A stretch of 64,000 bases of DNA, taken from contig NZ_CP053941.1 of the NCBI RefSeq assembly GCF_013267195.1, positions 1 through 64,000 of the forward strand, in the 5' to 3' direction. Positions 684 through 58,000 of this stretch are shown here, piece after piece. Both the position numbers and the translations under genes were made by a program. Below the pieces are notes generated by a model. The model had not been told where the DNA came from, ran no database searches, and saw nothing but the letters and a program-made list of their open reading frames with translations. Each line of letters opens with the position of its first letter. Positions within the stretch are counted from its first letter, which is position 1. The stretch comes from Halorubrum salinarum. GTDB taxonomy: Archaea; Halobacteriota; Halobacteria; Halobacteriales; Haloferacaceae.

Positions 684-2150
684 ATGAGTAGTGGGGCATC
701 CGGATCCGCGCGGACCCGATACGCCATCCTCGGCTGTGGAAGCGTCGGTCACGCGGTCGCTGAGGAACTGACCGAGCGCGGGAAGGACGTCCTCATCCTC
801 GACCGCGACGAGAGCCGGGTCGAGGCGCTCCGCGATCAAGACCTCAACGCGCGCGTCCAGGACATCGTCGAGCCGGACGTCGTCGACGAGCTCGACGACC
901 GGGACATCGTCCTGATCCTCGCGAGCGACGTGGAGGCGAACAAGGCCGCGGTCTCCGCTGTCAGGGAGACCGGCGGCGACCACTACGTCGTCGTCCGGGC
1001 CTCGGATCCCGTCAGCGAGGACGAGCTGCGCGAGCGCGGCGCGGACGTGGTGATCAACCCCTCGACGGTGATCGCCGACAGCGCGCTCCAGTCGCTGGAG
1101 ACCGGCGAGCTGGAGTACATGGCCCGCCAGCTCGCGGAGATCATCGAGGAGGGGGGCGACCGCATGGCGATCTTAACCCACGACAACCCCGAGCCGGACT
1201 CGATCGCGTCCGCCACCGCGCTCCAAGCCATCGCCGAAGCGTTCGGCGTCGACGCCGACATCATCTACTCCGGCGACGTGGGCCACCAAGAGAACCGCGC
1301 GTTCGTCAACCTCCTCGGAATCGACCTGCTCGCCCGCGGGGAGGCCCCGGCGCTCTCGGAGTACGCGACCGTCGCGGCCGTCGACCTCGCGAAGGCCGCG
1401 GCCGAGGACCTCGACCTCGACGTGTCCGTCGACATCTACCTCGACCACCTGGAATCCGAGGTGCCGTTCGACGCGCGGTTCGTCGACGTGCGCACCAACG
1501 TCTCCTCGACGTCGACGATCCTCACGAAGTACCTCCAGGAGTTCGACCAGTCGCCCTCGGAGGCGGTCGCGACCGCGCTGCTGTACGGGATCCGCGCCGA
1601 GACGCTCGACTTCAAGCGCGACACGACGCCGGCCGACCTGACCGCGGCCGCGTACCTCCACCCGTTCGCGAACCACGACACCCTCGAACAGGTGGAGTCG
1701 CCGTCGATGAGCCCGGAGACGCTGGACGTGCTCGCGGAGGCGATCCAGAACCGCGAGGTCCAGGGGAGCCACCTCTTCTCGACGGCCGGGTTCATCCGCG
1801 ATCGCGAGGCGCTCGCGCAGGCGGCCCAGCACCTCCTCAACCTGGAGGGGATCACGACGACGGCCGTGCTGGGCATCGCCGACGAGAAGATCTACCTCGC
1901 GGCCCGTTCAAAGGACATCCGACTGAACATCGGCAACGTCCTCGACGAGGCGTTCTCGGAGATGGGCGACGCCGCGGGCCACTCGACGCAGGGGTCGCTC
2001 GAGATCCCGCTCGGCATCTTCACCGGCATCGAGGCGAGCGGCGAGAACCGCGACACGCTCCTCCACCTCACCGAGGAGGCGGTCCGCCGGAAGCTGTTCG
2101 ACGCGCTCGGCGTCGAGGGCGGCAGCGGCGACGGCTCGAACGGCTCCTGA
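684..2150 (+). CDS. TrkA-N / DHH-DHHA1 phosphoesterase-like protein
   Basis: 488 aa. Residues about 11-130 form a Rossmann TrkA-N (RCK) nucleotide-binding domain with the glycine motif GCGSVG (17-22). From about 160 a DHH-type phosphoesterase domain follows: THDNPEPDS (165-173) is the Asp-rich metal motif I and a GH-containing motif follows near 199. The signature DHH triplet reads D254-H255-L256. A DHHA1-like C-terminal domain carries GHSTQGS near 432. This fusion is recurrent in haloarchaea, and DHH proteins include RecJ-type nucleases and cyclic or oligo-nucleotide phosphodiesterases, so the substrate is open. An RCK domain suggests control by NAD(H) or another nucleotide. The start was chosen as the first ATG after a TTAAG promoter-like stretch; the Rossmann fold begins at once. 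Confidence 0.85.
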   Translation: MSSGASGSARTRYAILGCGSVGHAVAEELTERGKDVLILDRDESRVEALRDQDLNARVQDIVEPDVVDELDDRDIVLILASDVEANKAAVSAVRETGGDHYVVVRASDPVSEDELRERGADVVINPSTVIADSALQSLETGELEYMARQLAEIIEEGGDRMAILTHDNPEPDSIASATALQAIAEAFGVDADIIYSGDVGHQENRAFVNLLGIDLLARGEAPALSEYATVAAVDLAKAAAEDLDLDVSVDIYLDHLESEVPFDARFVDVRTNVSSTSTILTKYLQEFDQSPSEAVATALLYGIRAETLDFKRDTTPADLTAAAYLHPFANHDTLEQVESPSMSPETLDVLAEAIQNREVQGSHLFSTAGFIRDREALAQAAQHLLNLEGITTTAVLGIADEKIYLAARSKDIRLNIGNVLDEAFSEMGDAAGHSTQGSLEIPLGIFTGIEASGENRDTLLHLTEEAVRRKLFDALGVEGGSGDGSNGS

Positions 2151-2233
2151 CCTGCCGATTCGGGACGGATCGCACCCGCGTCCCGGCGGGGTCGTTTTCC
2201 GGCTCGGTCCCGTACCTGCGACCGCCACGCCGC

Positions 2234-2443
2234 ATGTACGTTCCCGAGGAACCGCCGCCGGACTGTCCCGCCTGCGGCGACCCGTACGACTCGGTCTCCC
2301 GCCACACCGGGGGGTTCGTGGCGAACCTGCTCGACAACGAGCGCTACCAGCGGGTCTGTTTCTACCCCGCGACCGACGGTGGCGAGCCAGCTTTCGACTG
2401 CTATCACCACACGCACGCACAGGCCGGGACGGACGGCGACTGA
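2234..2443 (+). CDS. Small zinc-finger-like protein
   Basis: 69 aa. It has a CPACG knuckle near residues 11-15 and further Cys and His residues toward the C-terminus (VCFYP, DCYHHTH), consistent with one metal site. The pattern looks like conserved haloarchaeal small proteins of unknown function. It starts 83 bp after the DHH protein on the same strand. No enzymatic motif is seen. Confidence 0.6.
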   Translation: MYVPEEPPPDCPACGDPYDSVSRHTGGFVANLLDNERYQRVCFYPATDGGEPAFDCYHHTHAQAGTDGD

Positions 2444-2555
2444 CCGCGAGGAACTCGGACGGCGGCTAGCTGAGAGGAGAGAACCGACGGCGGCTGACGC
2501 CGGTAATGACGACTGACCGCGAGGGCGCAGGGCTGCCTCGGCGGTCGCGCCGCGC

Positions 2556-3530
2556 TCAGAAGTCGTCGCCTTCGGTGATCGAAGTGTACGAGCCGATCAG
2601 CGCGCCCGAGAGGTCGACGCCCTCCAGGGTGGCGCCCGTGTCGATCACGGAGTTGCGGACCTCGGAGTCGGTAATCGTCGCGTCCTCGAAGACGACCGCG
2701 CGGTCGAGCGTCGAGTCGGTCACCGTCGCGCCCGACATGACGTGGACCACGTCGCCGAGGTCGCTCCCCTCGACGGTCGCGTCGTCGGCGACGAGCGTCC
2801 CGCCGTCGAGCGCGTACTCGACCGCGTCGAGGTAGGAGTCGGCGGTGCCGATGTCGAACCACGCGCCGTCGAAGGTGAACGCGTGGACCGCGCCGCGCCG
2901 CTGGAGCCACTGGAGGAACCAGCCCGGCTCGTCCGGGTTGTTGTCGTCATCGAGATAGGTGGTGAGCTTCGGGAGCGTCTCCGCGGGGAACGCGTAGCAG
3001 GCGATGGAGACGAGCGTCGACTGCGGGTCGTCGGGCTTCTCCTGGAAGTCGACCACCTCGTCGCCGTCCAGTTGGACGAGCCCGTACGACTTCGCGCGCT
3101 CGCGGTCGCCCACGTCGTAGGCCGCCAGCGTCGGCGTCCCCTTGTCCTCGAAGAAGTCGGCGAAGTCGGCCAGATCGAAGCTGATCATGTTGTCGCCGGC
3201 GACGACGATCAGGTCGTCGTCGACGCCCTCGCGGTCGACGAGCTGTTCGAGCGCCCCCACCACGCCGAACTTCTCGTCCTCCTCGACGGTCTCCTCGACC
3301 GACAGTGTCGGCTTCTCGAACGGGCTCTCGTCGAGGTACTCGGCGAACGTGTCGGCGAAGCGCTCGTTCGTCGAGACGAACACCTCGTCGACTCGGTCGT
3401 CGGCCTCTAAGTCCTCGAATATCTCGTCGATGACGGTGTTCTCGCCCACCGGCAGGAACATCTTCGGCCGGTGTTCGGTGATCGGCCAGAGTCTGGTCGC
3501 GTAGCCACCCGCGAGTACGACGGCTTTCAT
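2556..3530 (-). CDS. Sugar-1-phosphate nucleotidyltransferase with beta-helix tail
   Basis: 324 aa. It should transfer a nucleotidyl group from NTP to a sugar 1-phosphate (RmlA/GlmU superfamily). The N-terminal signature LAGGYATRLWP with a later PKMFLPVGE binds the nucleotide. GDNMISFD is the metal-binding motif and QEKP follows in the usual place. The last ~80 residues repeat a short-period pattern typical of a left-handed beta-helix. I chose MKAVVLAGG (ATG at 3530) because the signature begins there; an in-frame ATG nine codons upstream is less likely. The sugar cannot be told from sequence; glucose 1-phosphate is the commonest substrate. It stands alone, convergent with its left neighbour. 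Confidence 0.85.
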   Translation of the reverse strand: MKAVVLAGGYATRLWPITEHRPKMFLPVGENTVIDEIFEDLEADDRVDEVFVSTNERFADTFAEYLDESPFEKPTLSVEETVEEDEKFGVVGALEQLVDREGVDDDLIVVAGDNMISFDLADFADFFEDKGTPTLAAYDVGDRERAKSYGLVQLDGDEVVDFQEKPDDPQSTLVSIACYAFPAETLPKLTTYLDDDNNPDEPGWFLQWLQRRGAVHAFTFDGAWFDIGTADSYLDAVEYALDGGTLVADDATVEGSDLGDVVHVMSGATVTDSTLDRAVVFEDATITDSEVRNSVIDTGATLEGVDLSGALIGSYTSITEGDDF

Positions 3531-3619
3531 ACCCCTCCCGTCTCGCCCCGGTGACATACCTCTTGTGCCCGCGTCGGTCGCCCCGTACGTCTTTTGAGCG
3601 CCCGCCGCGAACCCGGCGC

Positions 3620-3919
3620 ATGGAGACGACCCGCCAGCGGATCGCGGACGCGCTCCGGGAGGAGCCGCGGACGGCGAGCGACCTCGCCGAGACGCTGTCG
3701 CTGCCGACGCCGACCGTGTACGAACACCTCGACCACGTCTCGCGGTCGGTCCGAGAGGGGAACGCCGGCGGCGGCGACGCGGACGAGGAGTTCCTCGTCG
3801 CGCCGCCGACCTGCCGCGAGTGCGGGTTCGACGGCTTCGACGACCCGGTCAACGAGCCGTCGCGGTGTCCCGAGTGTAAGAGCGAGCGGATCGAGGAGCC
3901 CGCGTTCGTGATCCGGTAG
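3620..3919 (+). CDS. Winged-helix regulator with C-terminal zinc ribbon
   Basis: 99 aa. An N-terminal winged helix (about 1-45, METTRQRIADALR then LAETLSLPTPTVYEHLDHV) is followed by a two-knuckle zinc ribbon: CRECG and CPECK about 20 residues apart. This matches a conserved haloarchaeal class of small predicted DNA-binding regulators. The ATG at 3620 was chosen because the HTH begins directly after it. It is divergent from the nucleotidyltransferase, 89 bp apart, so control of that gene is possible but not shown. Confidence 0.75.
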   Translation: METTRQRIADALREEPRTASDLAETLSLPTPTVYEHLDHVSRSVREGNAGGGDADEEFLVAPPTCRECGFDGFDDPVNEPSRCPECKSERIEEPAFVIR

Positions 3920-3934
3920 GGAGACGGGGCGGCG

Positions 3935-4612
3935 TTACAGCTCGTCCAGCAGCGTCGCCGCCGCGTCGGCCGAGGAGCCCGGGCCGCGCGCGGTGATCAG
4001 GTCGCCGTCGACCGTGACGCTCGTGTCGGCGTCGAGTTCGGCGTCCCAGTCGGCGCCGGCGAGGACGACCTCGTCTTCGACCCAGTACGGGAGCTTCCGG
4101 CCGTCCGGCAGCACGTCGTCCTCGTCGACGATGTCCTCCTCCCACGCGTTCGGGAAGCCGGTCACCGAGCGGCCCTCGACGAGCGGCGTCCCGTCCGCCT
4201 CGCGGGTGAACCCGAGGATGCCGACCGCGTGACAGACGACGAGGGCGACGCCGTCGTCGCCCGCGACCGCGTCGAGCAGGAGCTGGCGGGCGTGGCGGTC
4301 CTGGTTCACGTCCCAGACGGTCCCGTGGCCGCCGGGGAGGACGACGGCGTCGTAGCCGTCGGCCTCGACCGTCGCGATCGGCTCCGGATGGTTGAGTTCG
4401 GGGTGGCCCTCGTCGACCTCGCGAAGCTCCGCGACGCGTTCCTCGCCGCCCGCGGCCTCCGGGTCGAGCGACCGCTCGTCGACGACCGGCGGCGACCCGG
4501 ACGGCGTCGCGACCGTCACGTCGACGCCCTCGCTTTCGAGCGTCGTCAGCGGCTCGATACACTCCTCGGCCCAGTACCCCTCTTCGCTCACGACGAATAG
4601 CGCGCTGGTCAT
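3935..4612 (-). CDS. DJ-1/PfpI family protein (type 1 glutamine amidotransferase fold)
   Basis: 225 aa with one DJ-1/PfpI domain. The nucleophile elbow is VVCHAVG with C127 followed by H128. LPGGHGTVWD (92-101) supplies the conserved glycine turn, and an early acidic residue (E17 or E19) fits the Glu that activates the cysteine in this family. Length and layout resemble the Hsp31/YhbO/HchA group, whose members act as glyoxalase III, protein deglycase or chaperone. Which activity applies cannot be decided here. It is convergent with the zinc-ribbon regulator. Confidence 0.85.
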   Translation of the reverse strand: MTSALFVVSEEGYWAEECIEPLTTLESEGVDVTVATPSGSPPVVDERSLDPEAAGGEERVAELREVDEGHPELNHPEPIATVEADGYDAVVLPGGHGTVWDVNQDRHARQLLLDAVAGDDGVALVVCHAVGILGFTREADGTPLVEGRSVTGFPNAWEEDIVDEDDVLPDGRKLPYWVEDEVVLAGADWDAELDADTSVTVDGDLITARGPGSSADAAATLLDEL

Positions 4613-4857
4613 GTGTACGCCCCCGTTGACGCCCCCGACACAAAAGGCGCCCGCGCCCGGCAGCGACGAGGGGCGGCGCTGAGTTTATAACTGACCGCAG
4701 CGGTGCGGTCGGCGCGCGCCGCCGAGCGGCCGCCCGCGGCGGCCGCGAGGTGCGCGTGCGAGGGACGCGGCGACCGGAGCGAAGCGACGGGAGCCGCGAG
4801 GCTGGGGAGGCGTGAGGCTGCGGTCGCTGTGCGGTGCGGGGCTGGGACTCAAAGGGG

Positions 4858-4962
4858 CAGCCGTGAGGACGGAGTACGGCGCAGTAAGCGCCGCAGCGAC
4901 TGAGCGAGCAACGCGAGCGACCGAGCGAGGCGCGCAACAAGCCGCGCGAGTCCTCACGGCTG
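4858..4962. repeat. Long imperfect hairpin element in an intergenic region
   Basis: The 447-bp gap 4613-5059 has no credible gene. Inside it 13 bp at 4858-4870 (CAGCCGTGAGGAC) are exactly inverted at 4950-4962, and the similarity runs a few bases further out on both sides. The ~80 bp between the arms are made of short GAGCGA/GCGAGC-like runs. A TATTTATAAGC sequence lies beyond it at about 5000-5010. It resembles a dispersed intergenic or MITE-like element rather than an operator because the arms are far apart. Confidence 0.5.
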
Positions 4963-5059
4963 GGGCTTTGGAGGAGTTCGTCGCCGCTGCGTAGTCGACT
5001 ATTTATAAGCGGCTAACCAGAAAATTCGCGGGGTTCACCGCGGTTCCGCTGCGGACGGG

Positions 5060-5629
5060 TTATTCGTCGCCCTGCGCGTCGACGATCACGACCTCGCCGT
5101 CCTCGACGGTGACGTTGATCAGCGTCTTCACGTTGTAGTCGGTGTCGTCGAGCTCGTTCGGGCCGGCCTTCTTGATCACGGCGACGACGTCGACGACCTC
5201 CGCGCCGACCTCGTCGGTGAGCGCGTCGAGGATGGCCTTCATCGTGCCGCCCGTCGAGAGCACGTCGTCGAGCACGAGCACGCGGTCGCCCTCCTCGACG
5301 TCGTTGATGTACATCTCCGACTCGGAGTAGCCGGTCTCCTGGAACAGCGGGACCTCGCCGTCGAGGCCGTACTGGCGCTTCCGGATGACGACCAGCGGGA
5401 TGTCGGTCATCAGCGAGAGCGCGGTCGAGATGTGGATCCCCATCGCCGCGGGGGTGACGATCTTGTCGACGTTCTCCAGCTCCGCCTTCCGGATGATCCG
5501 GATGACGATCTCCCGGAGCAGCTCCGGTTCGAGCATGGGGACGCCGTCGCTGATCGGGTGGACGAAGTACTGGTACTCGCCTTTCTCGATGATCGGCGCG
5601 TCGAGGAGCGACTGCCGCAACTGGTCCAT
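5060..5629 (-). CDS. hpt: Hypoxanthine/guanine-type purine phosphoribosyltransferase
   Basis: 189 aa. The type I phosphoribosyltransferase PRPP loop is clear as [13 protein letters not shown] (117-129). The N-terminus [17 protein letters not shown] and the block [16 protein letters not shown] are those of the archaeal HGPRTase-like/Apt-like family. It would salvage purine bases with PRPP into nucleotides. Base specificity (hypoxanthine/guanine or adenine) is not reliable from sequence in this family. The start at 5629 was preferred to a longer frame reaching 5707, whose extra residues do not fit the family. Confidence 0.88.
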
Positions 5630-5744
5630 GTCGCGGGTACTCGGGCGGATTAATAAAGCGTGGCGATCCCCGAGTTCCGTGGAGTCCGGTGGCACGGAGC
5701 GAGGCACGGAGGTGAGCCGAAGGCGGTGGGCGGGCCGGCGCGAC

Positions 5745-6506
5745 TTACCCGCCCGTCACGTGGCGCTCCATCGCTTCGACGGTCGGACTGAGCATGTCGG
5801 TGAGTCCGCGGTCCGCGTCGGCCGCTGGGGCCCACTCCTCGGACGTCAGGTAGTCGCCGACCTCGTGGACCGTCGCGGCGTCCGCACCGCGGTAGCGGGA
5901 CACCGCCCACAGCGCCGCCGACTCCATACAGAGAGTCACGACTCCTTCATCGCGGTAGCGCTCGACCTCGGGAACCGTCTCGCGGTACATCGCGCTGGTC
6001 GTCCACGTCGTTCCGCGTGGCGTGTCGAAGCCGGCGCGCGACAGCGACGCGTCGAGTTCGTCGACGAGCGACGCGGTCGGTGTCACCGGCTCCTCCGGGG
6101 GGAGATAGTGGTGTGAGACCCCCTCGTCGCGGATGGCGTCCGTCGGGAGGATGGCGGCGTCCGGGGCGATGTCGGGCTGGAGCGCGGCGCCGCCGCCGAG
6201 CATCGCGACCGCTTCGGCCCCGGCGGCGATAACGTTCTCCGTGACGGTCGCGGTCACCGGTGCGCCGATCCCCGACTCGTGGACGGGCACGTAGCCGACC
6301 GCCTCGGAGAGCAACTCGATGTGTTGTCCCCTGACGATCTCGACACGGTCGTCGCTCTCTTCGCGTACCGCGTCAGTGAGCTCGGCCTGGTAGCCGAGCA
6401 AGACGGCCGGCGGCCCGTCAGGGAGCCCGTCGCCTTGCGTCGCGACGGCATCAGCGGGCGAGAAGAGCGCGTCGGCGTCGTACTTGTCGCCGAAGTGCGG
6501 GATCAT
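5745..6506 (-). CDS. Nucleoside phosphorylase (uridine phosphorylase-like)
   Basis: 253 aa. It belongs to the PNP/UDP phosphorylase family, which splits nucleosides with phosphate. The family signature near the C-terminus is seen as [18 protein letters not shown], where the Met-Glu binds ribose. A glycine-rich phosphate-site block reads [13 protein letters not shown]. The ATG (6506-6504) overlaps the TGA of the upstream crotonase gene by 4 bp, so the two are translationally coupled. It lies 115 bp from the phosphoribosyltransferase, in line with a nucleoside/base salvage role. Confidence 0.82.
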
Positions 6507-7279
6507 TCGAACTCCGGCTCCCGTTTCTCCAAGAACGCCCGCATCCCCTCGCGCTGGTCGTGGGTGCCGAACAGGCCGGCCCACGCCCGGCGTTCGAGGG
6601 CGTGACCGGTCGCCGCCGTGCCCTCGCCGGCCGCGTTCAGCGCCTCCTTCGCGGCGCGCAGCGCGGTCGCGGGCTTCGCCGCCAGCTCGCCGGCCAGCTC
6701 GTCGATCCGGTCGTCGAACTCCTCGTCGGCGACGACCTCGCCGACGAAGCCCACCTCGGCGGCCTCGGCCGCGTCGATGCGCTCGCCGAGGAAGATCAGC
6801 CGGCGGGCCACCTCGTCGCCGACGAGGGGCGGGAGACGCTGGGTGCCGCCCCAGCCCGGGATGATGCCGAGGTCGATCTCGGTCTGCCCGAGGACGGCGC
6901 TCTCGGCCGCGACGCGGAGGTCGCAGGCCAAGGCGAGCTCGCAGCCGCCGCCGAATGCGTAGCCGTCGACCGCGGCGACCGTTGGCGCCGGGAACGACTC
7001 AATTGCGTCCGCGACGCGGTGGCCGAGCTCCGCGTACGCCTGCGCCTCCGGCGTCGACATCTCGACCATGTAGGAGATGTCGGCGCCGGCGACGAACGCC
7101 TCGTCGCCCGCGCCGGCGATCACGAGGGCGCGCGCGTCGCGGTCGGCCGCCTCGTCCAGCGCGTCCTCGATCGCTTCGAGCGTCTCGACGGTGAGCGCGT
7201 TGAGCTGTTCCGGTCGGTCGACGGTGATCGTCGCGACGCCGCGGTCGTCGACGTCGAAGGAGATGGTGTCCCGGTTCAT
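6503..7279 (-). CDS. Enoyl-CoA hydratase/isomerase (crotonase)
   Basis: 258 aa, full crotonase length. The oxyanion-hole motifs are GADIS (65-69) and GGGCE (110-114). Both catalytic glutamates of true hydratases are present, E114 and E134 (in GQTEIDLGIIPGWGGTQRL). It should add water to trans-2-enoyl-CoA in fatty- or amino-acid degradation. The downstream nucleoside phosphorylase overlaps it by 4 bp, an odd functional pairing that may only reflect compact packing. Confidence 0.9.
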   Translation of the reverse strand: MNRDTISFDVDDRGVATITVDRPEQLNALTVETLEAIEDALDEAADRDARALVIAGAGDEAFVAGADISYMVEMSTPEAQAYAELGHRVADAIESFPAPTVAAVDGYAFGGGCELALACDLRVAAESAVLGQTEIDLGIIPGWGGTQRLPPLVGDEVARRLIFLGERIDAAEAAEVGFVGEVVADEEFDDRIDELAGELAAKPATALRAAKEALNAAGEGTAATGHALERRAWAGLFGTHDQREGMRAFLEKREPEFE

Positions 7280-24858: not shown

Positions 24859-26067
24859 ATGTACGGAGTCGTGCTCGCGGCCGGCCGCGGGACTCGGATG
24901 CGACCGCTGACGGACCGCCGCCCGAAACCGCTGCTCCCGGTCGGGGACCGCTCGCTGCTGGAACGGGTGTTCGACGCGGCCCGCGACGTCGTCGACGAGT
25001 TCGTCGTCGTGACGGGCTACCGCGGCGAGGCGATCCGGGAGGCGATCGGCGAGTCGTACCGTGACCGCCCGGTCCACTTCGTCGAGCAGGCGGAGGCGCT
25101 GGGCACCGCCCACGCCGTGGCGCAGGCCGCGCCGGTCGTCGACGACGACTTCCTCGTGCTCAACGGGGACGTGGTCGTTGACGCGTCGCTGCCGCGGGCG
25201 CTCGCCGACGCGGGCGCGCCGGCGGTCGCGGCCACCGAAGTCGACGACCCGCGGGCGTACGGCGTGCTCTCGACGGACGCGGACGGCGCGCTCGCGGACA
25301 TCGTCGAGAAGCCGGCGGACCCGCCGACGAACCTCGCGAACGTCGGCTGCTACGCGTTCGGACCGGAGGTGTTCGAGTACATCGACCGCACGCCCGAGAG
25401 CGAGCGCGGCGAGTACGAGATCACGACGACGATCGACATGCTGCTCGGCGACGGCCGCCGGATCGACGTGGCGCGCTACGACGGCACGTGGCTCGACGTG
25501 GGGCGCCCGTGGGAGCTGCTGGAAGCGAACGAGCTGGCGCTGGCGGCGCTCGACGACGGGCGCGAGATAGCCGGCGCCGTCGAGGAGGACGTCCAGCTTC
25601 ACGGACCGGTGGTCGTCGAGGCGGGGGCGCGGGTCCGATCCGGGGCGTACGTCGAGGGGCCGGCGCTGATCCGCGAGGGCGCCGACGTGGGACCGAACGC
25701 CTACGTCCGCGGGGCGACCGTCGTGGGGCCCGGAGTCCACGTCGGCCACGCGGTCGAGGTGAAGAACTCGGTGCTGATGGCGGACGCCTCGGTCGGTCAC
25801 CTCTCGTACGTCGGCGACTCCGTCCTCGGTCGCGGGGTCAACTTCGGCGCGGGGACGAACGTCGCGAACCTCCGCCACGACGGCGAGAACGTCCGGCAGA
25901 CGGTGAAGGGCGACCGCGTCGACACCGGGCGTCGCAAGCTGGGCGCGATCGTCGGCGACGGCGCGAAGACCGGGATCAACACCGCGTTGAACGCAGGCGT
26001 CGTGCTGGGCACCGGTGAGACGACGGGGCCCGGCGAGGCGCTGACACGCGACCGGCTCTCGGAGTAG
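24859..26067 (+). CDS. glmU: Bifunctional GlmU-type UDP-GlcNAc pyrophosphorylase/acetyltransferase
   Basis: 402 aa with two domains. The N-terminal ~230 residues are a nucleotidyltransferase: LAAGRGTRMRPLT then RPKPLLPVG, the metal-site LNGDVV and the VEKP loop. From about 240 to the end is a left-handed beta-helix with acetyltransferase hallmarks: EVKNSVLM, HLSYVGDSVLG, NFGAGTNVANLRHDG and GAKTGINTALNAGVVLG. This is the archaeal GlmU arrangement that acetylates glucosamine 1-phosphate and then makes UDP-GlcNAc. With glmM upstream and glmS at 34.3 kb the route from fructose 6-phosphate is complete. Confidence 0.85.
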   Translation: MYGVVLAAGRGTRMRPLTDRRPKPLLPVGDRSLLERVFDAARDVVDEFVVVTGYRGEAIREAIGESYRDRPVHFVEQAEALGTAHAVAQAAPVVDDDFLVLNGDVVVDASLPRALADAGAPAVAATEVDDPRAYGVLSTDADGALADIVEKPADPPTNLANVGCYAFGPEVFEYIDRTPESERGEYEITTTIDMLLGDGRRIDVARYDGTWLDVGRPWELLEANELALAALDDGREIAGAVEEDVQLHGPVVVEAGARVRSGAYVEGPALIREGADVGPNAYVRGATVVGPGVHVGHAVEVKNSVLMADASVGHLSYVGDSVLGRGVNFGAGTNVANLRHDGENVRQTVKGDRVDTGRRKLGAIVGDGAKTGINTALNAGVVLGTGETTGPGEALTRDRLSE

Positions 26068-33080: not shown

Positions 33081-34256
33081 ATGGCAACCGACTCGGTAAC
33101 CGCGGTGATCCTCGCCGCGGGCGAGGGCCGGCGGCTGGCGCCGCTGACGAACCGGCGGCCGAAGCCGATGGTCCCCGTGGCGAACAGGCCGCTACTCGAA
33201 CACGTCGTGGAGGCCGTGACGGCGACCGACATCGACCGGATCGTCCTCGTCGTCGGCTACGAGCAGGAGCGCATCCGGAACCACTTCGGCGACGGCGACG
33301 ACTGGGGCGTCACGATCGAGTACGTCGAGCAGGCGACGCAGCTGGGCACCGGCCACGCCGTCCTCCAGGCCGAGCCGGTCGTCGACGGACCGTTCGTCGT
33401 GCTCAACGGCGACCGGATCGTCGACTCGTCGATCGTCTCGGCGATGCGCGACCGGGCGCTCGACGGTGCCCCCCCGGCGATGGCGGTCACGTCCGCGGCG
33501 AGGCCCCGCGAGTACGGCGTCGTCACGCTCGACGGCGACCGCGTGACGGCCATCGACGAGAAGCCGGAGGGGCCAGTCGAGACCAACCAGATAAACGCCG
33601 GCGTCTACGCCTTCTCGCCGGCGGTGTTCGACGCGATCCGCGAGACGCACGCCCCCGGCGAGTTGGCGATCACGGCGACGCTCAACGACCTCGCCGAGCG
33701 CGAGACGCTGTCGGCGGTGCGGTACGACGGGCGCTGGCTCGACGTGTCGAACCTCTGGGACCTGCTGGCCGTCAACGCGGGGCTGGTCGACGAGGCTGCG
33801 ACGCCCGATGCCGCGGGCGCGAGCCGCGGCGAGTCGGTGACCGTCGCCGACGACGTGGCGCTCGCGGGCAACGTGCGCGTCGGACCGAACGTCACGCTCG
33901 GCGGGAGCACCGCGATCGGCAGTAACGCGACCATCGAGGCGGGCGCGGTCGTCGAGAACGCCGTGGTCTTCCCAGACGCCGTGATCGGCGCCGGCGCCGT
34001 GGTCCGGGACGCGATCGTCGCCGGCAACGCGCGAGTCGGCCCGAACGCGACGATAGCAGGCGAACCGGCGACGGTCGTCGTCGGCGACGCGGTCCACCAC
34101 GGCGTCGAACTCGCCGGCGTGGTCGGGGACAACGCGACGGTCGGCGCCGGCGCGACGCTCACCGACGGCGCGGTCGTCGGCGACGACGTGACGGCCGACG
34201 CGGGGGTCGTGATCGACGACCGCGTCGACTCGGGTGCGGTCGTGCGGAGGGGGTAA
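33081..34256 (+). CDS. Sugar nucleotidyltransferase with beta-helix domain (second GlmU/AglF-like)
   Basis: 391 aa. The nucleotidyltransferase domain has LAAGEGRRLAPLT then RPKPMVPVAN, LNGDRIVD and the DEKP loop. The C-terminal ~150 residues repeat hexapeptide-like turns (VGPNVTLGGSTAIGSNATIEAG) but lack the acetyltransferase motifs of the gene at 24859, so it may be only a pyrophosphorylase (UDP-sugar). glmS starts 2 bp after its stop, a tight operon that ties it to amino-sugar supply. Confidence 0.82.
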   Translation: MATDSVTAVILAAGEGRRLAPLTNRRPKPMVPVANRPLLEHVVEAVTATDIDRIVLVVGYEQERIRNHFGDGDDWGVTIEYVEQATQLGTGHAVLQAEPVVDGPFVVLNGDRIVDSSIVSAMRDRALDGAPPAMAVTSAARPREYGVVTLDGDRVTAIDEKPEGPVETNQINAGVYAFSPAVFDAIRETHAPGELAITATLNDLAERETLSAVRYDGRWLDVSNLWDLLAVNAGLVDEAATPDAAGASRGESVTVADDVALAGNVRVGPNVTLGGSTAIGSNATIEAGAVVENAVVFPDAVIGAGAVVRDAIVAGNARVGPNATIAGEPATVVVGDAVHHGVELAGVVGDNATVGAGATLTDGAVVGDDVTADAGVVIDDRVDSGAVVRRG

Positions 34257-34258
34257 TC

Positions 34259-36133
34259 ATGTGCGGGATAACCGGCTACATCGGCGACGGCATCGCGCTG
34301 AATGACGGAGACAGCGACAGCGACGGTGCCGCGGGCGACGGCGGGGTCGCCGGCGTCGGCGACATCGTCCACGAGGGGCTCCGCAATCTAGAGTACCGCG
34401 GCTACGACTCCGCCGGCGTCGCGCTCGTCGGGGAGACGAGCGGGCTCACGGTCGCGAAGCGGTCCGGCGAGGTCGACAACCTCACCGTGCCCGACGTGCC
34501 CGACGCGGCGCTCGGCGTCGGCCACACGCGCTGGAGCACGCACGGCCCGCCGACGGACGCGAACGCTCACCCGCACACCGACTGCGTCGGCGACGTGGCG
34601 GTCGTCCACAACGGGATCGTCGAGAACCACGAGGCGCTCAAAGCCGAGCTAGCTGATCACGAGTTCACGAGCGACACCGACACCGAGGTCATCCCGCACC
34701 TGATCGAGGAAGAGCTCGCCGCCGAGCGCGGCGCGGACGGCCTCCTCGGCGCGGTCCGGGCCGTCGAGGACCGCTTGGAGGGGAGCTACGCGATCTGCGC
34801 GGTCCGCGAGGGCGACGACCGGATCGTCGTGGCGCGGCGCGGGAGCCCGCTCGTGTTGGGCCGCGACGACGACGCGACGTTCGTCGCCAGCGACGTGACG
34901 GCCTTCCTCGAACACACCCGCGACGTGACGTACCTCGAGGACGGCGACGTGGCGGCGCTGTCGGCCGAGGGCGTCGCAATCTACGCCGACGGCGATCTCG
35001 TCGACCGCGGCGTCGAGACGGTGACGTGGGAGGCCGACGCCGCCGAGAAGGGCGGCTACGAACACTACATGCGTAAAGAGATCCACGAGCAGCCCGAAGC
35101 CCTGCGGCAGACCATCGCAGGCCGGCTCGACGTGGACGCCGGCGGCGTCGACCTCGACGTCTCGTTCCCGCCGGGCTTTCTCGCGGACCTCGAAGAGATC
35201 CAGATCGTCGCCTGTGGCACCTCGAACTACGCGGGCCGGTACGCCGCGCAGCTGTTCGAGGAGCTCTCGGGAGTGCGCGCGACAGTTGAGATCGCCAGCG
35301 AGTACGAGTTCGGCGCTGGTCGCAGCCCGGACCGGACGCTCGTCGTCGCCGTGACGCAGAGCGGCGAGACCGCCGACACGCTGGGCGCGGTCCGGCGAGC
35401 GAACGCCGCGGGCGCGCGGACCTTCGCCGTGACGAACACGCTCGGGAGTACGGTGACGCGCGAGGTGGACGACACCGCGTTCATCCGCGCCGGCCCCGAG
35501 ATCGGCGTGGCGGCGACGAAGACGTTCGCCTCGCAGGTGGCGACGCTCGCGATGCTCGCGGTGGCGATCGGCCGCGAGCGCGGCGCGTTGGCCGCCGCCG
35601 ACGCCCGCCCCGTGCTGGAGGGGCTCCGCGACCTCCCCGGCGCGGTCCAGCAGGTGCTCGACGCCGAGTCGCGGGTCCGCGAGGCCGCCACCGAGTACGG
35701 CGACAGCGGGGCGTTCTTCTTCGTCGGCCGGCAGCTGGGCGTGCCGGTCGCTTTGGAGGGCGCGCTGAAGCTCAAGGAGATCTCCTACGACCACGCCGAG
35801 GGGTTCGCCGCCGGCGAGCTGAAACACGGCCCGCTCGCGCTGGTGACGCCCGACACGCCCGTGTTGGCCGTGCTGACCGACGGCGCGCGCGCCGCCGAGA
35901 CGATGAACAACGTGACCGAGGCACAGACGCGCGGCGCGCCCGCCATCGGCTGCGTCTCCGCGGACGAGGAGTACGGTACGCTGGACGTCTCGCTGCCGGT
36001 GCCCGACGTGGGCCTCGTCGAGCCGCTGGTCGCGAACGTCTACCTCCAGCTGTTCGCGTACCACGTGGCCAACGACAAGGGCCGGTCGATCGACAAGCCG
36101 CGGAACCTCGCGAAAAGCGTCACCGTCGAGTAG
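34259..36133 (+). CDS. glmS: Glutamine--fructose-6-phosphate aminotransferase (GlmS)
   Basis: 624 aa. It forms glucosamine 6-phosphate from fructose 6-phosphate and glutamine. The N-terminus MCGITGYIG exposes the Cys2 glutaminase nucleophile after Met removal. LEYRGYDSAG, GHTRWSTHG and HNGIVEN complete the glutaminase domain. Two SIS domains follow: VACGTSNYAGR with TQSGETADT, and VGRQLGVPVALEGALKLKEISY. The end DKPRNLAKSVTVE carries the conserved catalytic Lys. An acidic insert of about 15 residues (NDGDSDSDGAAGDGG) enlarges the first loop, a common haloarchaeal adaptation. Confidence 0.95.
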   Translation: MCGITGYIGDGIALNDGDSDSDGAAGDGGVAGVGDIVHEGLRNLEYRGYDSAGVALVGETSGLTVAKRSGEVDNLTVPDVPDAALGVGHTRWSTHGPPTDANAHPHTDCVGDVAVVHNGIVENHEALKAELADHEFTSDTDTEVIPHLIEEELAAERGADGLLGAVRAVEDRLEGSYAICAVREGDDRIVVARRGSPLVLGRDDDATFVASDVTAFLEHTRDVTYLEDGDVAALSAEGVAIYADGDLVDRGVETVTWEADAAEKGGYEHYMRKEIHEQPEALRQTIAGRLDVDAGGVDLDVSFPPGFLADLEEIQIVACGTSNYAGRYAAQLFEELSGVRATVEIASEYEFGAGRSPDRTLVVAVTQSGETADTLGAVRRANAAGARTFAVTNTLGSTVTREVDDTAFIRAGPEIGVAATKTFASQVATLAMLAVAIGRERGALAAADARPVLEGLRDLPGAVQQVLDAESRVREAATEYGDSGAFFFVGRQLGVPVALEGALKLKEISYDHAEGFAAGELKHGPLALVTPDTPVLAVLTDGARAAETMNNVTEAQTRGAPAIGCVSADEEYGTLDVSLPVPDVGLVEPLVANVYLQLFAYHVANDKGRSIDKPRNLAKSVTVE

Positions 36134-37017: not shown

Positions 37018-39753
37018 TTACCAGGTCAGCCCTTCGTAGGTGATCCCCTCGCGGCGTTCGATGATGCGGCGCCCGTCGACGACGATCGGGGTCGCCATCG
37101 CGTCGAACTCCGAATCGAGCGCGGCGAACTCGTCCCAGTCGGTGACGACGACCGCGCCGTCGGCGCCGTCGAGCGCCGCCGCGGCCGAGTCCGCGTACGT
37201 CACGTCGTCGACGTAGTTCGGGGCGTTGTCGGCCGCGACCGGGTCGTAGGCGGTGACCGTCGCGCCGCGTGCTTGAAGGTCCTCGATCACCGGAATCGCG
37301 CGGGAGTTCCGCATGTCGTCGGTGCCGGGCTTGAACGCGAGACCGAGGACGGCGATGGTCGCGCCGTCAACTCCGCGGTCACGGTGGTCGGCAAGGTGGG
37401 CGGCCAACAGTTCGACCAGCCGCGCCGGCTGGCGGTCGTTGACTTCGACCGCGGCGTTGAGCACCGCCGGCTCGTAGCCGGTCTCCTCCGCGGCCGCGAT
37501 GATTGCGGCGACGTCCTTGGGAAAGCAGTTGTGAACAACGAGACCATCCGTTGTCACAAACGTGTGATCGTCGGCGACCTCTAAGGAGTAGACCTCCGTT
37601 TCTGTTTCTTCAACAGAGACCTCACGGACCGGAACCGACGAGAAGCCCCCGTCTGCGGTGTGTCCGGTCGGCTTGATGTCGCGATCGTACTGGGCGAGCC
37701 GGTTTTCGATCCGTTCCCGTTCGTCTGTGAGGAACATCTCTTTCAATGCCGCGATCTGGTGTTTTGAACTCACACGGAGGAAGTGGGCCGGCTGTGTCGA
37801 CTTCGCCGATTCAGAGGTCTTGTAACTGGGCACAATACCGAGGCTGTGTAGGAGGAGCTGCATGCCGTCGATGAGCTCCTTGCTCACAGAACCATAATCG
37901 TAGACAACCGCGTTCGAGTGGCTCGTGTACTCAATGTGACCGTCACCTCTGAACAGCCCTGACAGTAGCGCCCGACGCTGCGATTCAGTTGCTTGGAATG
38001 CGCTGTCGGGGATCGCTGCGGAGTACGATCCGGATCCACAGCCGAGCCATTCGATGAATTCCGCGAATACGCGACTGGAAACAGTGATTTCCGTCGTAGT
38101 TTCGTGTTGTGACGTGCGATGTCGGATTCCTAATCGTTCGTAGTACGATTCGACCTCGCGTACGTACTCTGGCTCATCAGTTGGATGGAAACTCAGGGCA
38201 ACACGGCGGCGTGTCGTCGATCCATGACCAGACGTATCATCGTTGATGTGGCCTTCACTGAGGTAGTAGCCGATGAACCGCCAGAACTCCTCGTCAACCG
38301 GGAGCTTCGCCGGCACATATGTCTGTCCGCCACCCCGCGTCGTGTACAAGCTAAGATCAGCCCTGTCGACTGGTAATTCGTCTTCGTATGCGAGAAACAC
38401 ATCCAGCGGGAGGTAGTTGTCCCGAACAAGGTCCGAAACTTTGTGATAGTCGAACTGTCGGTTGTACTCTTGGAGGACCTCGTACACGTCGTCTTTGACT
38501 GTTTCAAGCGGTGTCGAGGGTTTCAGGTAGACGGACTCGTTGTCAAACGCGGTAGACGTCTTGATGATATCGATGAGATCAAACGTAGAGACAGGATCGC
38601 TTGGGAGGTCAGTCATCACTGGGATCGAATCACCCGGTTCGATTTCGGCCGCCGGCTGAATCGCACTGTCTTGTTCCGTGAGAGTGATTATTGGGTGGTC
38701 ATGCGTGACTGTGACTGTCTTGTTCATTTTCGTCCGGATCGTGTGGAGCGACCCCTCGTAGTGACGCCGCGTCGCTGCGTGAACTGGCTTGAATCGGAAC
38801 TTGCCGCTCGGAGACCGACTGAGCACGGCGACATCGTCGACGGTTTCTTCGGCGACGTACTTGTCAAAGAACTCGGTAAGTGTAAGATGGTTCACCCCCG
38901 TTTCGTCTTTCGTTAGAACGCGCTGGTCGCCTGTCAGACAGCTGCCGCCCCACCCCACACCGCTCTGGAGGAACTGCTCGCTGATCCGGTCGTCGAGGCC
39001 GATCGCGTCGGCGACCTCGTAGGCGTCGACGCCGAGCTCCTTACAGATGTTTCCGAGGTCGTTGATGAGGCTGACCTTCGCCGCGAGGAAGCCGTTGTTG
39101 GCGTACTTGATCATCTCGGCGGTGCGCGTGTCGGTCTCGACGACCGGCGCGTCGGCCGCCTCGACGAGCGGGGCGAACACCGCGCGCATGTCCTCGAGCG
39201 CGCGGTCGTCGTCCGCGCCGAGGACGACCTTGTCCGGATTCAAGAAGTCGTGGACGGCCGTCCCCTCGCGGAGGAACTCCGGATTCATCCCGACACCGAA
39301 TCCTTCGCCGGCGGTCCTCCCGCTCTCCGTTTCGAGGATCGGGGTGATCGCGTCCGCCGTCGAGCCGGGGACGACCGTGCTCTTGATGGCGACGGTGTGC
39401 CAGTCGGCTTTGTCGGCGAGCGCTCCGCCGAGCTGGCTCGCGCCCGCCTCCATGATCGACAGGTCGATGCTGCCGTCGTCGTTCTGCGGCGTCGGCAGAC
39501 AGAGGAAGGTCACGTCGGTGTCGCGGACCGCGGCGTAGTCGGTCGTCGCGCGGAGACGCCCCGTGCCCTCCGGCCCGGCGTGTTCGGCGATGAGTTCCGG
39601 GAGTCTCTCCTCGTGGATCGGCGCGTCGCCGGCGTTGATCGCCTCGACGACCGACTCGTCGATGTCGATGTTCACCACGTCGTGGCCCAGATCGGCGAAG
39701 CAGGCGGCGACCGTCGTGCCGACGTAGCCGCTGCCGACGATAGAGAGATCCAT
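37018..39753 (-). CDS. aglM: UDP-glucose 6-dehydrogenase (AglM-type) interrupted by an intein
   Basis: 911 aa, of which 440 remain after splicing, normal for the family. It oxidises UDP-glucose to UDP-glucuronate with two NAD+. The N-terminal NAD fold starts MDLSIVGSGYVGTTVAACFADLGH. LPTPQNDDGSID, IKSTVVPGST and MNPEFLREG follow, then the central helix with EMIKYANNGFLA. The active-site loop GVGWGGS-CFPKD is split by the intein exactly before the catalytic Cys. The C-terminal domain has LGLAFKPGTDDMRNSRA. The start at 39753 begins the Rossmann strand. The AglG-like transferase at 53965 would use the UDP-glucuronate; a TrmB-type operator lies upstream. Confidence 0.93.
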   Translation of the reverse strand: MDLSIVGSGYVGTTVAACFADLGHDVVNIDIDESVVEAINAGDAPIHEERLPELIAEHAGPEGTGRLRATTDYAAVRDTDVTFLCLPTPQNDDGSIDLSIMEAGASQLGGALADKADWHTVAIKSTVVPGSTADAITPILETESGRTAGEGFGVGMNPEFLREGTAVHDFLNPDKVVLGADDDRALEDMRAVFAPLVEAADAPVVETDTRTAEMIKYANNGFLAAKVSLINDLGNICKELGVDAYEVADAIGLDDRISEQFLQSGVGWGGSCLTGDQRVLTKDETGVNHLTLTEFFDKYVAEETVDDVAVLSRSPSGKFRFKPVHAATRRHYEGSLHTIRTKMNKTVTVTHDHPIITLTEQDSAIQPAAEIEPGDSIPVMTDLPSDPVSTFDLIDIIKTSTAFDNESVYLKPSTPLETVKDDVYEVLQEYNRQFDYHKVSDLVRDNYLPLDVFLAYEDELPVDRADLSLYTTRGGGQTYVPAKLPVDEEFWRFIGYYLSEGHINDDTSGHGSTTRRRVALSFHPTDEPEYVREVESYYERLGIRHRTSQHETTTEITVSSRVFAEFIEWLGCGSGSYSAAIPDSAFQATESQRRALLSGLFRGDGHIEYTSHSNAVVYDYGSVSKELIDGMQLLLHSLGIVPSYKTSESAKSTQPAHFLRVSSKHQIAALKEMFLTDERERIENRLAQYDRDIKPTGHTADGGFSSVPVREVSVEETETEVYSLEVADDHTFVTTDGLVVHNCFPKDVAAIIAAAEETGYEPAVLNAAVEVNDRQPARLVELLAAHLADHRDRGVDGATIAVLGLAFKPGTDDMRNSRAIPVIEDLQARGATVTAYDPVAADNAPNYVDDVTYADSAAAALDGADGAVVVTDWDEFAALDSEFDAMATPIVVDGRRIIERREGITYEGLTW
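37528..38940 (-). other. Intein with LAGLIDADG homing endonuclease in UDP-glucose dehydrogenase
   Basis: 471 residues, from C272 of the precursor to Asn before CFPKD. Splicing motifs are intact: Cys1 in CLTGDQRVL, the block B TVTH (intein 77-80), and the end DDHTFVTTDGLVVHN with the His-Asn pair. The +1 residue is Cys, which is also the enzyme's catalytic cysteine. Two LAGLIDADG-like helices are visible, FIGYYLSEG (222-230) and LLSGLFRGDG (325-334), each with an acidic residue, so the nuclease may be active. Base composition is visibly lower in GC than the exteins, a sign of transfer. Confidence 0.95.
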
Positions 39754-40109: not shown

Positions 40110-40991
40110 ATGACGGATTCCGGAGCGGACCTCTTCTCGCTGCTCGATCTGACGGAGTACGAAGCCGACGCCTTAGAGGAGCTGCTGCTGTTGGGCCGGA
40201 CGACGGCGCCCGACCTCGCGGAGGCGACCGGGATCCCGAAGGCCCGGATCTACGGCGTCCTCGACGCGCTCTCCGAGGCGGGGTACGTGAAAGTGATTCC
40301 GGGCCGGCCGAAGCGGTACGAGCCCCACGAGCCGGCGGCGATCGCCGAGCGGGCGGTCGAGAACCGTCGCCACGCCTACGAGCGATTCCGCGAGGACGTC
40401 GAAGCCGTCGAGGCGGCGTTCGTCGACGAGTACGCGCCGGTCCGCGACCGGGGCGTCGACGAGCTGAGCCCGACGGAGGACCTGTTCCACGTCGTCGACG
40501 TGGGCGAGCCGAGCGAGCGCGAGACGCGGCGGCTGTTCCGCGAGGCCGAGGAGGCGGTGTACGTGCTCTCGAAGAGCTTCGGCTACGTCGACGCCGTGCG
40601 CCCGGCGATGCGCGACGCGGTCGACCGCGGCGTCGACGTCGACGTACTCCTCCTCCATCCCGAGTCGCTGTCCGCGGAGAACCGTGAGCGACAGGCCGCG
40701 ATCCGCGAGACGCTCGCCGCGGAGTTCCCGTCCGTCTCCGTGCGCGTCAGCGACCGCGTGCTGCCGTGGCGCGGCACCTTCGCCGACCCGAGCCTCTCGT
40801 ACGAGTCCGGGCAGGGGCTGCTCATGGTCGAACAGGAGGAGGTGCCGAACCACCACCGACAGGCCGCGGTCACCGAGAACCCCTCGTTCGTGGCGGGGAT
40901 GTGGCAGTACTTCGACCTGCTGTGGCGCCACGAGAGCGTTCCCGCCGAACCGGGCCCCGACCCGGAACCCGGAGACGCCGGCGCGGAGTGA
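40110..40991 (+). CDS. trmB: TrmB-family sugar-responsive transcription regulator
   Basis: 293 aa. An N-terminal winged helix (about 8-75: LTEYEADALEELLLLGRTTAPD, IPKARIYGVLDALSEAGYV) is followed by a short coiled linker (about 85-115) and a C-terminal PLD-like/TrmB sensor domain (VYVLSKSFGYVDAVRPAM, VDVDVLLLHPESL). In haloarchaea TrmB homologues bind DNA when glucose is low and control gluconeogenic and sugar genes. Matching operators lie on both sides of the gene, before the aglM-side microprotein and before the SDR operon, so it probably tunes nucleotide-sugar supply for glycosylation. Confidence 0.85.
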   Translation: MTDSGADLFSLLDLTEYEADALEELLLLGRTTAPDLAEATGIPKARIYGVLDALSEAGYVKVIPGRPKRYEPHEPAAIAERAVENRRHAYERFREDVEAVEAAFVDEYAPVRDRGVDELSPTEDLFHVVDVGEPSERETRRLFREAEEAVYVLSKSFGYVDAVRPAMRDAVDRGVDVDVLLLHPESLSAENRERQAAIRETLAAEFPSVSVRVSDRVLPWRGTFADPSLSYESGQGLLMVEQEEVPNHHRQAAVTENPSFVAGMWQYFDLLWRHESVPAEPGPDPEPGDAGAE

Positions 40992-55031: not shown

Positions 55032-58000
55032 ATGAGCGATTCGAACGATCCGCCGGACGAATCGGACTCGTCCCCCTCCGATCTCCTCGCGCGGTGGTAT
55101 CACGTTCCCGTCCTCCTCGGGGTGGTCGCGTTCATGCTGTGGACGCGCCTGCGCTCGTACGGGAACTTTATTCAGAACGGTGAGGTGTACTTCCGCGGCA
55201 ACGACGCGTGGTATCACCTCCGCACGACGAACTACCTCCTCGAAAACTATCCGAGCACCCTGCCGTACGACGTCTGGACCGGCTTCCCGGTCGGGACGAA
55301 CGCCGGGCAGTTCGGCACGTTGTGGGACCACATTATGGCCGTCGGGATCTGGATCGCCCGACCGATCATGGGCAGCACCGAGGAGGTAATGCTCATCATG
55401 GCCCCCATCACGGGCGCGCTGGTCGCGGTCCCGACGTACTTCATCGCCCGCCGGTTCGTCGACCGCGTGCCTGCCCTTGCGGGCGCCGCCACGCTGGCGC
55501 TGTTCTCCGGAACGTTTCTCCGGTACACGCTCGTCGGCTTCCCCGACCACAGCGCGGCCGAGGTCCTCTTCCAGAGCATCGCTATTCTGGCGTTCCTCGT
55601 CGCGCTCGGCGTCGCCGAACGCGAGAAGCCGGTGTGGGAGCTCGTCATCGATCAGGACTGGGACGCCCTCAAACGCCCGGTCGCCTACGCTGCCGCCGCG
55701 GGCACCGCGCTCGGCCTCTACATGTGGACCTGGCAGCCAGGTATCCTGATGGTTGGGTTCACGGGGATCTTCCTCGCCGTGAAGCTCACGAGCGACACCT
55801 ACCACGGGAAGAGCCCAGAACCGGTCGCGTTCGCCGGCGCGGTCGCGATGATCGTTGCGGGCCTGATGCAGATTATCCCGCTCGACACATTCCGATTCGC
55901 ACCGAGCGAATACTCGCTGCTCCAGGTCGTGACGCCGCTCGCCGTGGCGCTCGGCGCCGTCTTCCTCGCGTGGCTCGCGCGCCAGTGGGAGGTACGTGAC
56001 CTCGGCACCGACACCTACCCCGCGGCCGTCGGCGGCCTCATCATCGCGTCCGCGGCATTCGTCTGGCTCGCAATCCCCTCTCTGTGGTCAACGGTCGTCG
56101 GGAACCTCCTGAACACCGTCGCCTTCTCTGCGAGCGCCGGCGCCCGCACTATCGGCGAGGCACAACCGCCCCTCCAGGGCGCCTCGTTCTCCAATTTCGT
56201 CCTCTCGCAGTATGGACTCGCCTTCTTCCTCGCGCTGGCCGCAGTCCTCTACATCCTCGCGCGCCCGCTGTACCGTTCCGACGACATCAATCACACCCTC
56301 TATATTCCGACCGCGCTCGCCGTCATCGGCACGGTCTACGCGGTCCCGCAGGCATACGGCGCGGTCGGCGGCCTCGTCGGCGTCGATTGGCAGGTGATCG
56401 GGCTGCTCATCGCCGCAGCCTTCTTTGTCGGGGCGACGCTGCTCGTCGAGTACGAAGCCGAGGAACTGTACTTCGTCGTGTGGGCGGCGTTCATCGGCAG
56501 CGCGGCGTTCACGCAGGTCCGGTTCAACTACTACCTCGCCGTCGTCGTCGCCGTCGGCACGGCGTACTTCCTCCAGGTCGCGCTCGACGCCCTCAATCTC
56601 ACCTCGCTCGACGCCGTCCGCGAGATCGAAGGGTGGCAGGTGCTCACCGTCGCCGCCGTCATCGCGATTCTCATCGTCCCGCTGGTCGGCGTCGCCACGC
56701 CGGTCTGGCAGGCGGGTAACTCCAGCCAGCCGGGCAGCGTCGTCCAGTGGGACGAGAGCCTCCAGTGGATGAACGACGAGACGCCCCAGCCGGGCGAACT
56801 CGAGGGCGCGGACAACCCCATGGAGCTGTACGGCACCTATGAGCGACCCGCAGACGGCGACTTCGAGTACCCGGAGGGCGCCTACGGCGTCCAGTCGTGG
56901 TGGGACTACGGCCACTGGATCACCACGCGCGCCGAGCGCATCCCGAACGCCAACCCGTTCCAGCAGAACGCGGGCGAAGCCGCCGACTACCTCCTCGCGC
57001 CGAGCGAAGAAGAGGCCGCGGAGGTGCTCGCGAGTCAGAGCACCGAGGGGAACCGGACCCGCTACGTGATGGTCGACTGGCAGATGGCGTCGCCGAACTC
57101 CAAGTTCAACGCGCCGGTCACCTTCTACAGCGGCAACGAGACCGTGCGCGACTTCAACGAACTGCTCTACCAGCGCGTTCAGGGTCCGCAGGGCCAGCAG
57201 GGCGGCCTCCGCCCCGCGCTCCAGACGCGCACCCAGCGCTACCACGAGAGCCAGATGATCCGGCTCTACCAGCACTACGGCAGCGCGGTCGAGCCCGAGC
57301 CCGTCGTCGTCGACTGGGAGACGCGGGGCGCACAGACCGCCTCGGGCGAACAGATCGACATCAGGGTCCTACCGAGCGAGGGGCAGGCGATCCGCAGGTT
57401 CGACAACCTCTCGGCCGCGCGGTCGTACGTCGAGGAGGACGGCTCCGCGCAGGTCGGCGGCGTGATGGGCGTGCCCACGGAGCGGCTCGACGCCCTGGAA
57501 CACTACCGGCTTGTCCACGCCACGGAGGCGCCGGGGCGGTCGCCGTACGCCCAGCAGGCGAGCATCCTCGCCCAGCAGTTCGGCGTCGACCTCCGGGCGA
57601 CGTTCGGCGAGTCGCTGTTCGGCGCGTTCCGCGACGACTTCGTCAAGACGTTCGAGCGCGTGCCGGGCGCGACCGTCGAGGGATCGGGCGCGGCGCCCGG
57701 CCAAGAGGTCCAGGCGACCGTCGAACTGCGGAAGCCGAACGGGCAGACGTTCGAGTACACGCAGTACGCGACCGCGGACGACGACGGGAACTTCGAGTTC
57801 ACGCTTCCGTACTCCACGACCGGGTACGACGAGTTCGGTCCAGAGAACGGGTACACGAACACGAGCGTCCGCGCGACCGGGCCGTACAACGTCACCACGG
57901 CGGCGACGACCGACGACGACCTCTACACCACCGAGCGGTTCGGGCAGGTCGAGGTGACCGAGGGGCAGGTCGTCGGCGCCGACGACGCGGCGGCGACGGT

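Follow-up and report, generated by a model that had tools for sequence, protein, structure and literature searches.

The aglM gene in the window (the whole analysed stretch, 64,000 nucleotides of Halorubrum salinarum contig NZ_CP053941.1) is interrupted by an intein, which lies directly before the codon of the catalytic cysteine of the encoded UDP-glucose dehydrogenase. The element is very probably a full-length class 1 type intein with a LAGLIDADG homing endonuclease, belonging to the 'udp' allele. It represents a clean natural case of intein persistence, in which the splice nucleophile is also the catalytic nucleophile of the host enzyme. Sequence comparisons favour its interpretation as a selfish element that is actively homing, since its presence across the extein tree calls for 11 or more supported changes and no part of it is under stronger constraint than the endonuclease. 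Regulated splicing of the window intein is not supported. The finding is ordinary in kind and exactly observed; the association of the intein with one synonymous form of the +1 cysteine codon appears to be a small new observation.

The precursor is encoded by an open reading frame on the minus strand (37021–39753), comprising 911 codons without an internal stop. Precursor residues 1–271 and 743–911 together form a UDP-glucose dehydrogenase of 440 residues, and this joined host enzyme matches NF041297 AglM with 728 bits (cutoff 670). In solved UDP-glucose dehydrogenases (e.g. PDB entries 3vtf and 4a7p) the motifs GGSC, on the N-terminal side, and CFPKD, on the C-terminal side, overlap at the cysteine. 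This junction cysteine is the established catalytic residue of the family, and from the established catalysis of these enzymes it may fairly be inferred that the unspliced dehydrogenase is inactive. Because the splice and catalytic nucleophiles are the same residue, splicing must be exact. The GC content at third codon positions (GC3) is 0.64 in the intein, versus 0.93 and 0.90 in the exteins. The window's genome contains a single AglM-type gene; the other matches are to one paralogue with only ~29% identity. Annotation of AglM, and its expression from intein-bearing strains, must allow for the insert.

The original prediction had placed an intein immediately ahead of the catalytic cysteine, and its coordinates prove exact to the base, with borders reading ...GVGWGGS / CLTGDQ...DGLVVHN / CFPKDV.... 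The intein matches the domains PF14890 Intein_splicing (3.5e-14) and PF14528 LAGLIDADG_3 (1.3e-15), and also TIGR01445 intein_Nterm and TIGR01443 intein_Cterm. As in class 1 inteins, a cysteine is found at position 1, a TxxH motif in Block B, His-Asn at the C-terminus and a cysteine at +1, and as expected of a homing endonuclease sequence two LAGLIDADG motifs are present with their acidic residues. The splicing motifs and both LAGLIDADG motifs had been described as intact, and the key residues are indeed present: Cys1, T79, H82, H470, N471 and the acids E229 and D333 are invariant across 12 aligned relatives. The block F histidine is kept in 11 of the 12 and replaced by asparagine in the remaining one. 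In the window intein a serine occupies the position of the block F aspartate, a residue that only about 60% of inteins conserve (PMC7765530). Modelled by itself with AlphaFold2, the intein has a confident structure (pLDDT 82.7, pTM 0.87), and the best matches of this model in the PDB are 2cw7 (PI-PkoII), TliVMA, PI-PfuI (1dq3) and PI-SceI, which share the combination of a Hint domain with a two-motif LAGLIDADG endonuclease, but have a sequence identity of 12–17% and occupy other host genes and sites. The fold of the model also matches I-DmoI.

Features of the intein-bearing aglM locus and its surroundings (positions in the window)
Feature	Position	Strand	Remarks
GlmS (glucosamine-6-phosphate synthase)	34259..36133	+	beside intein-free aglM in sister species too
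C-extein of AglM	37018..37527	-	from CFPKD... through stop; precursor residues 743-911
+1 codon TGC, dehydrogenase catalytic Cys	37525..37527	-	every haloarchaeal intein allele on the extein tree has TGC
Intein, 471 aa, Cys1 ... His470-Asn471	37528..38940	-	precursor residues 272-742
C-terminal splicing blocks F/G, VYSLEVADDHTFVTTDGLVVHN	37528..37593	-	Ser452 at block F Asp position
Second LAGLIDADG motif, ...LLSGLFRGDGHIE	37930..37971	-	catalytic acid D333 invariant
First LAGLIDADG motif, FWRFIGYYLSEGHIN	38242..38286	-	catalytic acid E229 invariant
N-terminal splicing (Hint) half, intein residues 1-110	38611..38940	-	model: all-beta start
Block B TxxH, intein T79-H82	38695..38706	-	unchanged in 12 aligned relatives
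Intein Cys1 codon (TGT), N-terminal splice nucleophile	38938..38940	-	
N-extein of AglM (UDP-glucose dehydrogenase)	38941..39753	-	residues 1-271, end ...GVGWGGS
TrmB-like sugar regulator	40110..40991	+	beside intein-free aglM in sister species too
STT3/AglB oligosaccharyltransferase match (PF02516)	55173..56111	+	N-glycosylation setting

About 25 further loci, from Halobacteria, Nanohaloarchaeota, Methanonatronarchaeia and Thermoplasmatota, carry the insert at this very residue, which rules out a chance insertion. In a scan of named genomes the carriers comprise the genera Halorubrum, Halosimplex, Halorientalis, Halonotius, Halorutilus, Halovenus, Haloarcula and Haloglomus, as well as Halobacterium salinarum DSM 3754, a Nanohaloarchaeota MAG, Methanohalarchaeum, a Thermoplasmatota MAG and, more distantly, two Omnitrophota MAGs. 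Among 170 genomes of the family, AglM contains the intein in ~15 and most AglM genes are without it. All readable archaeal junctions read GGS/C and HN/CFPKD, with the exception of one locus (L043) in which the frame is broken just upstream, while the Omnitrophota inteins reside in dehydrogenases of the GGH/CIP type, before the equivalent cysteine. The inteins form one tree, in which the haloarchaeal set is supported. One Omnitrophica MAG (L057) contains two adjacent nucleotide-sugar dehydrogenase genes (1360–4107 and 4164–6929), each intein-bearing, with junctions GGF/C...HN/CFPKD and GGH/C...HN/CIPAD that both precede the equivalent catalytic cysteine.

Comparison with known inteins, which had been proposed as a check, identifies the insert as the Halobacteria 'udp' allele reported for UDP-glucose 6-dehydrogenase by Soucy et al. 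in 2014 (PMC4071816). The insert and its host gene are thus already known, and the window holds a further member of this allele. The described allele shares the host gene and lineage, the full-length form with a homing endonuclease and the patchy occurrence, and is found in other Euryarchaeota and in Bacteria too. No difference from it was found; the site is presumably identical, as all udp-type inteins found here occupy one site. In general, inteins favour active sites (PMC7765530).

Some irregular loci among the relatives deserve mention. Frameshifts occur in three intein-bearing aglM frames, inside the intein in L017 and L054 and just before the junction in L043, and may be due to either assembly error or decay. 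The long open frames of L092–L097, considered as carriers of mini-inteins, are ordinary intein-free genes. A genome that seemed to hold two AglM copies (G143) has a single gene split over two contigs (L015/L035); the break, between the end of C147 and the start of C158, coincides with the N-junction of the intein and could reflect a mixed population with and without the intein, or a repeat.

Intein-free alleles of sister strains had been suggested as a further check, and they exist in syntenic positions within the same genus. In two such loci (L018 and L021) the order TrmB, aglM, glmS is kept and no intein is present, with exteins 93% and 90% identical to those of the window, and when the DNA flanks of the window are joined, they match these loci in an ungapped alignment at 92% and 90% identity. 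Halorubrum ezzemoulense DSM 17463 has two AglM copies, one with the intein (L033) and one without it (L090). The intein-free copy of H. ezzemoulense adjoins glmS, as does the window's gene. In Halobacterium, the enzyme VNG1048G, cloned from strain NRC-1 (PMC4335974), is active with 426 residues (PMC5041007), and must be without this intein since it is too short to contain it. The intein is present in the UDP-glucose dehydrogenase of Halobacterium salinarum DSM 3754 (L040). VNG1048G and the DSM 3754 locus are likely the same gene, and an intein polymorphism within this species is likewise likely. The patchy presence suggests that the host does not rely on the intein.

A quickly built extein tree (146 rows, no mixture model) requires 16 changes in the presence of the intein, at least 11 of which fall on supported (starred) branches. 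The inteins of the window and of H. ezzemoulense are 79% identical, whereas their exteins are only 68% identical, which on sequence grounds points to transfer. Over all haloarchaeal pairs the identities of intein and extein are correlated (r 0.74), so that vertical descent explains part of the history. In seven of eight pairs the endonuclease has a dN/dS of 0.05–0.10, below that of the exteins in each, the eighth pair being saturated; in every computable pair it is the region with the lowest or a near-lowest value. The values come from the simple Nei-Gojobori method, and endonuclease and exteins can be compared only approximately, given that dS of the exteins is compressed by their extreme GC3. 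The low dN/dS of the endonuclease in itself favours selection on this domain.

A vertically inherited intein that is a fixed passenger, with an endonuclease that is inactive or not needed, is very improbable. Such a history would agree with the correlated identities of inteins and exteins and with the frameshifts within the intein frame of two relatives, but it is at odds with the invariance of both LAGLIDADG acids, the low dN/dS of the endonuclease and the scattered presence with its supported changes; moreover, the alleles examined include no mini-intein.

As an actively homing element, the intein would follow a cycle of which the splicing steps are deduced from the conserved residues. After translation, Cys1 would attack the Ser-Cys junction and the N-extein would be passed to the +1 cysteine, later the catalytic cysteine of the enzyme; cyclization of Asn471 would then result in the ligated enzyme with an uninterrupted GGSCFPKD motif. 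The distribution, the tree and the constraint suggest that the freed intein cuts intein-free aglM at GGS|C, and that recombination copies the intein into the cut allele. Its selfish persistence may have two reasons: an undamaged active site is regained on splicing, and the targeted DNA codes for a protein motif that does not vary. The TGC codon at +1 is presumably linked to the element, most simply by co-conversion of a very short flank. The data can be explained without assigning a regulatory role to the intein.

According to the original prediction, splicing would gate the supply of UDP-glucuronate, and so N-glycosylation, if it responded to salt, heat or redox. This idea fares poorly, and a conditional switch of this kind is considered highly unlikely. 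It gains some plausibility from the insertion site, by which the unspliced enzyme would be dead, from the presence of only one AglM-type gene in the window's genome, and from the location of the locus in a glycan cluster, with the STT3/AglB match about 15 kb away and a sugar nucleotidyltransferase, GlmS, epimerases and a flippase-like gene nearby. In addition, other haloarchaeal inteins splice in a salt-dependent manner (PMC10663303, PMC11766414), and the response to salt differs among AglM homologues (PMC5041007). Against a switch, most relatives, including the syntenic sisters, are without the intein, H. ezzemoulense holds an intein-free copy beside the intein-bearing one, the strongest constraint falls on the endonuclease, and VNG1048G is active although too short for this intein. 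The conditional inteins of Hbt. salinarum (salt-dependent), P. abyssi MoaA and P. horikoshii RadA resemble the window intein in being archaeal and in occupying conserved sites, and that of Hbt. salinarum also in being halophilic. Condition dependence has been shown for those three inteins, whereas the window intein does not have the −3 cysteine of the MoaA type: the cysteines of the precursor are at positions 18, 85, 237, 272, 572 and 743, none of them at −3 in the N-extein, and a redox trap as in MoaA is rejected. The cytoplasm of these salt-in organisms is not known to encounter low salt under normal conditions. Close to GlmS the window also contains two genes for GlmU-like sugar-1-phosphate nucleotidyltransferases (24859–26067 and 33081–34256), within 9 kb.

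It had further been argued that the insertion site cannot mutate to escape homing without killing the enzyme. At the protein level the sequence GGSCFPKD is invariant in all 119 empty alleles examined, but these alleles encode it by 82 different 24-mers. The claim is thus overstated; synonymous variation is available for a possible escape. In a first comparison 19 of 25 empty alleles have TGT as the codon of the cysteine. This majority does not hold generally: after enlargement of the set with 100 more fetched loci (94 of them usable), the 119 empty alleles comprise 68 with TGC and 51 with TGT. The haloarchaeal intein alleles comprise 23 with TGC and one with TGT, a distribution that differs from that of the empty alleles (Fisher p 1.3e-4). 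The single TGT intein allele is L043, in which the N-extein frame is broken at the junction, and it was left out of the tree.

Because the TGT majority among the first 25 empty alleles was not general, a phylogenetic predictive test was used, in which a two-state model was fitted to the empty alleles only and the codons at the intein tips were predicted, such that relatedness is allowed for. TGC is observed at 22 of 22 intein tips, compared with an expected 11.4±2.4, and none of 20,000 draws reaches this number (P<5e-5), for a pattern that was noticed before testing, partly in the same data, and with a single tree. Three intein loci outside the tree (L035, L054 and L017) have TGC as well. The same test reveals weak departures at codons −2 (0.007), −1 (0.03) and +2 (0.02), and none at the other codons to about ±10. 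When restricted to independent pairs, a sign test, which is more conservative, gives a median p of 0.06 and is suggestive only.

The link between TGC and the intein fits both co-conversion and a preference of the endonuclease. In the simplest reading of this analysis, the last flanking bases would be co-converted at invasion, much as in the MCM-d intein, the +1 codon of which is known to be co-converted with the intein (PMC10643990); the change there is from Pro to Ser and necessary, whereas here it is the synonymous change from TGT to TGC. A preference of the endonuclease, by which TGC alleles are invaded and TGT alleles survive as synonymous resistant variants, is possible, though doubtful. 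It is in line with the presence of TGC in all 22 intein alleles, compared with 68 of the 119 empty ones, with the prevalence of TGT among empty alleles in the clade to which the window belongs, and with the weak shoulders at −2, −1 and +2 and none beyond, which correspond to the size of a LAGLIDADG core. Large TGC clades are still uninvaded, however, and LAGLIDADG enzymes tend to accept wobble changes (PMC3943268, PMC10643990), related haloarchaeal endonucleases included (PMC10643990), while the MCM-d precedent also favours co-conversion. It is about as likely as not that the codon of the catalytic cysteine is functionally part of the element, in that either each invasion writes TGC there, along with hardly any more of the flank, or TGT is a synonymous defence against homing. 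If true, one silent base in an active-site codon would record or control invasion. The link between the intein and this base provides a simple test of co-conversion versus synonymous resistance. An origin of Cys1 as the old host codon is rejected, as the Cys1 codon is TGT even beside TGC empty alleles (L008, L009 and L039).
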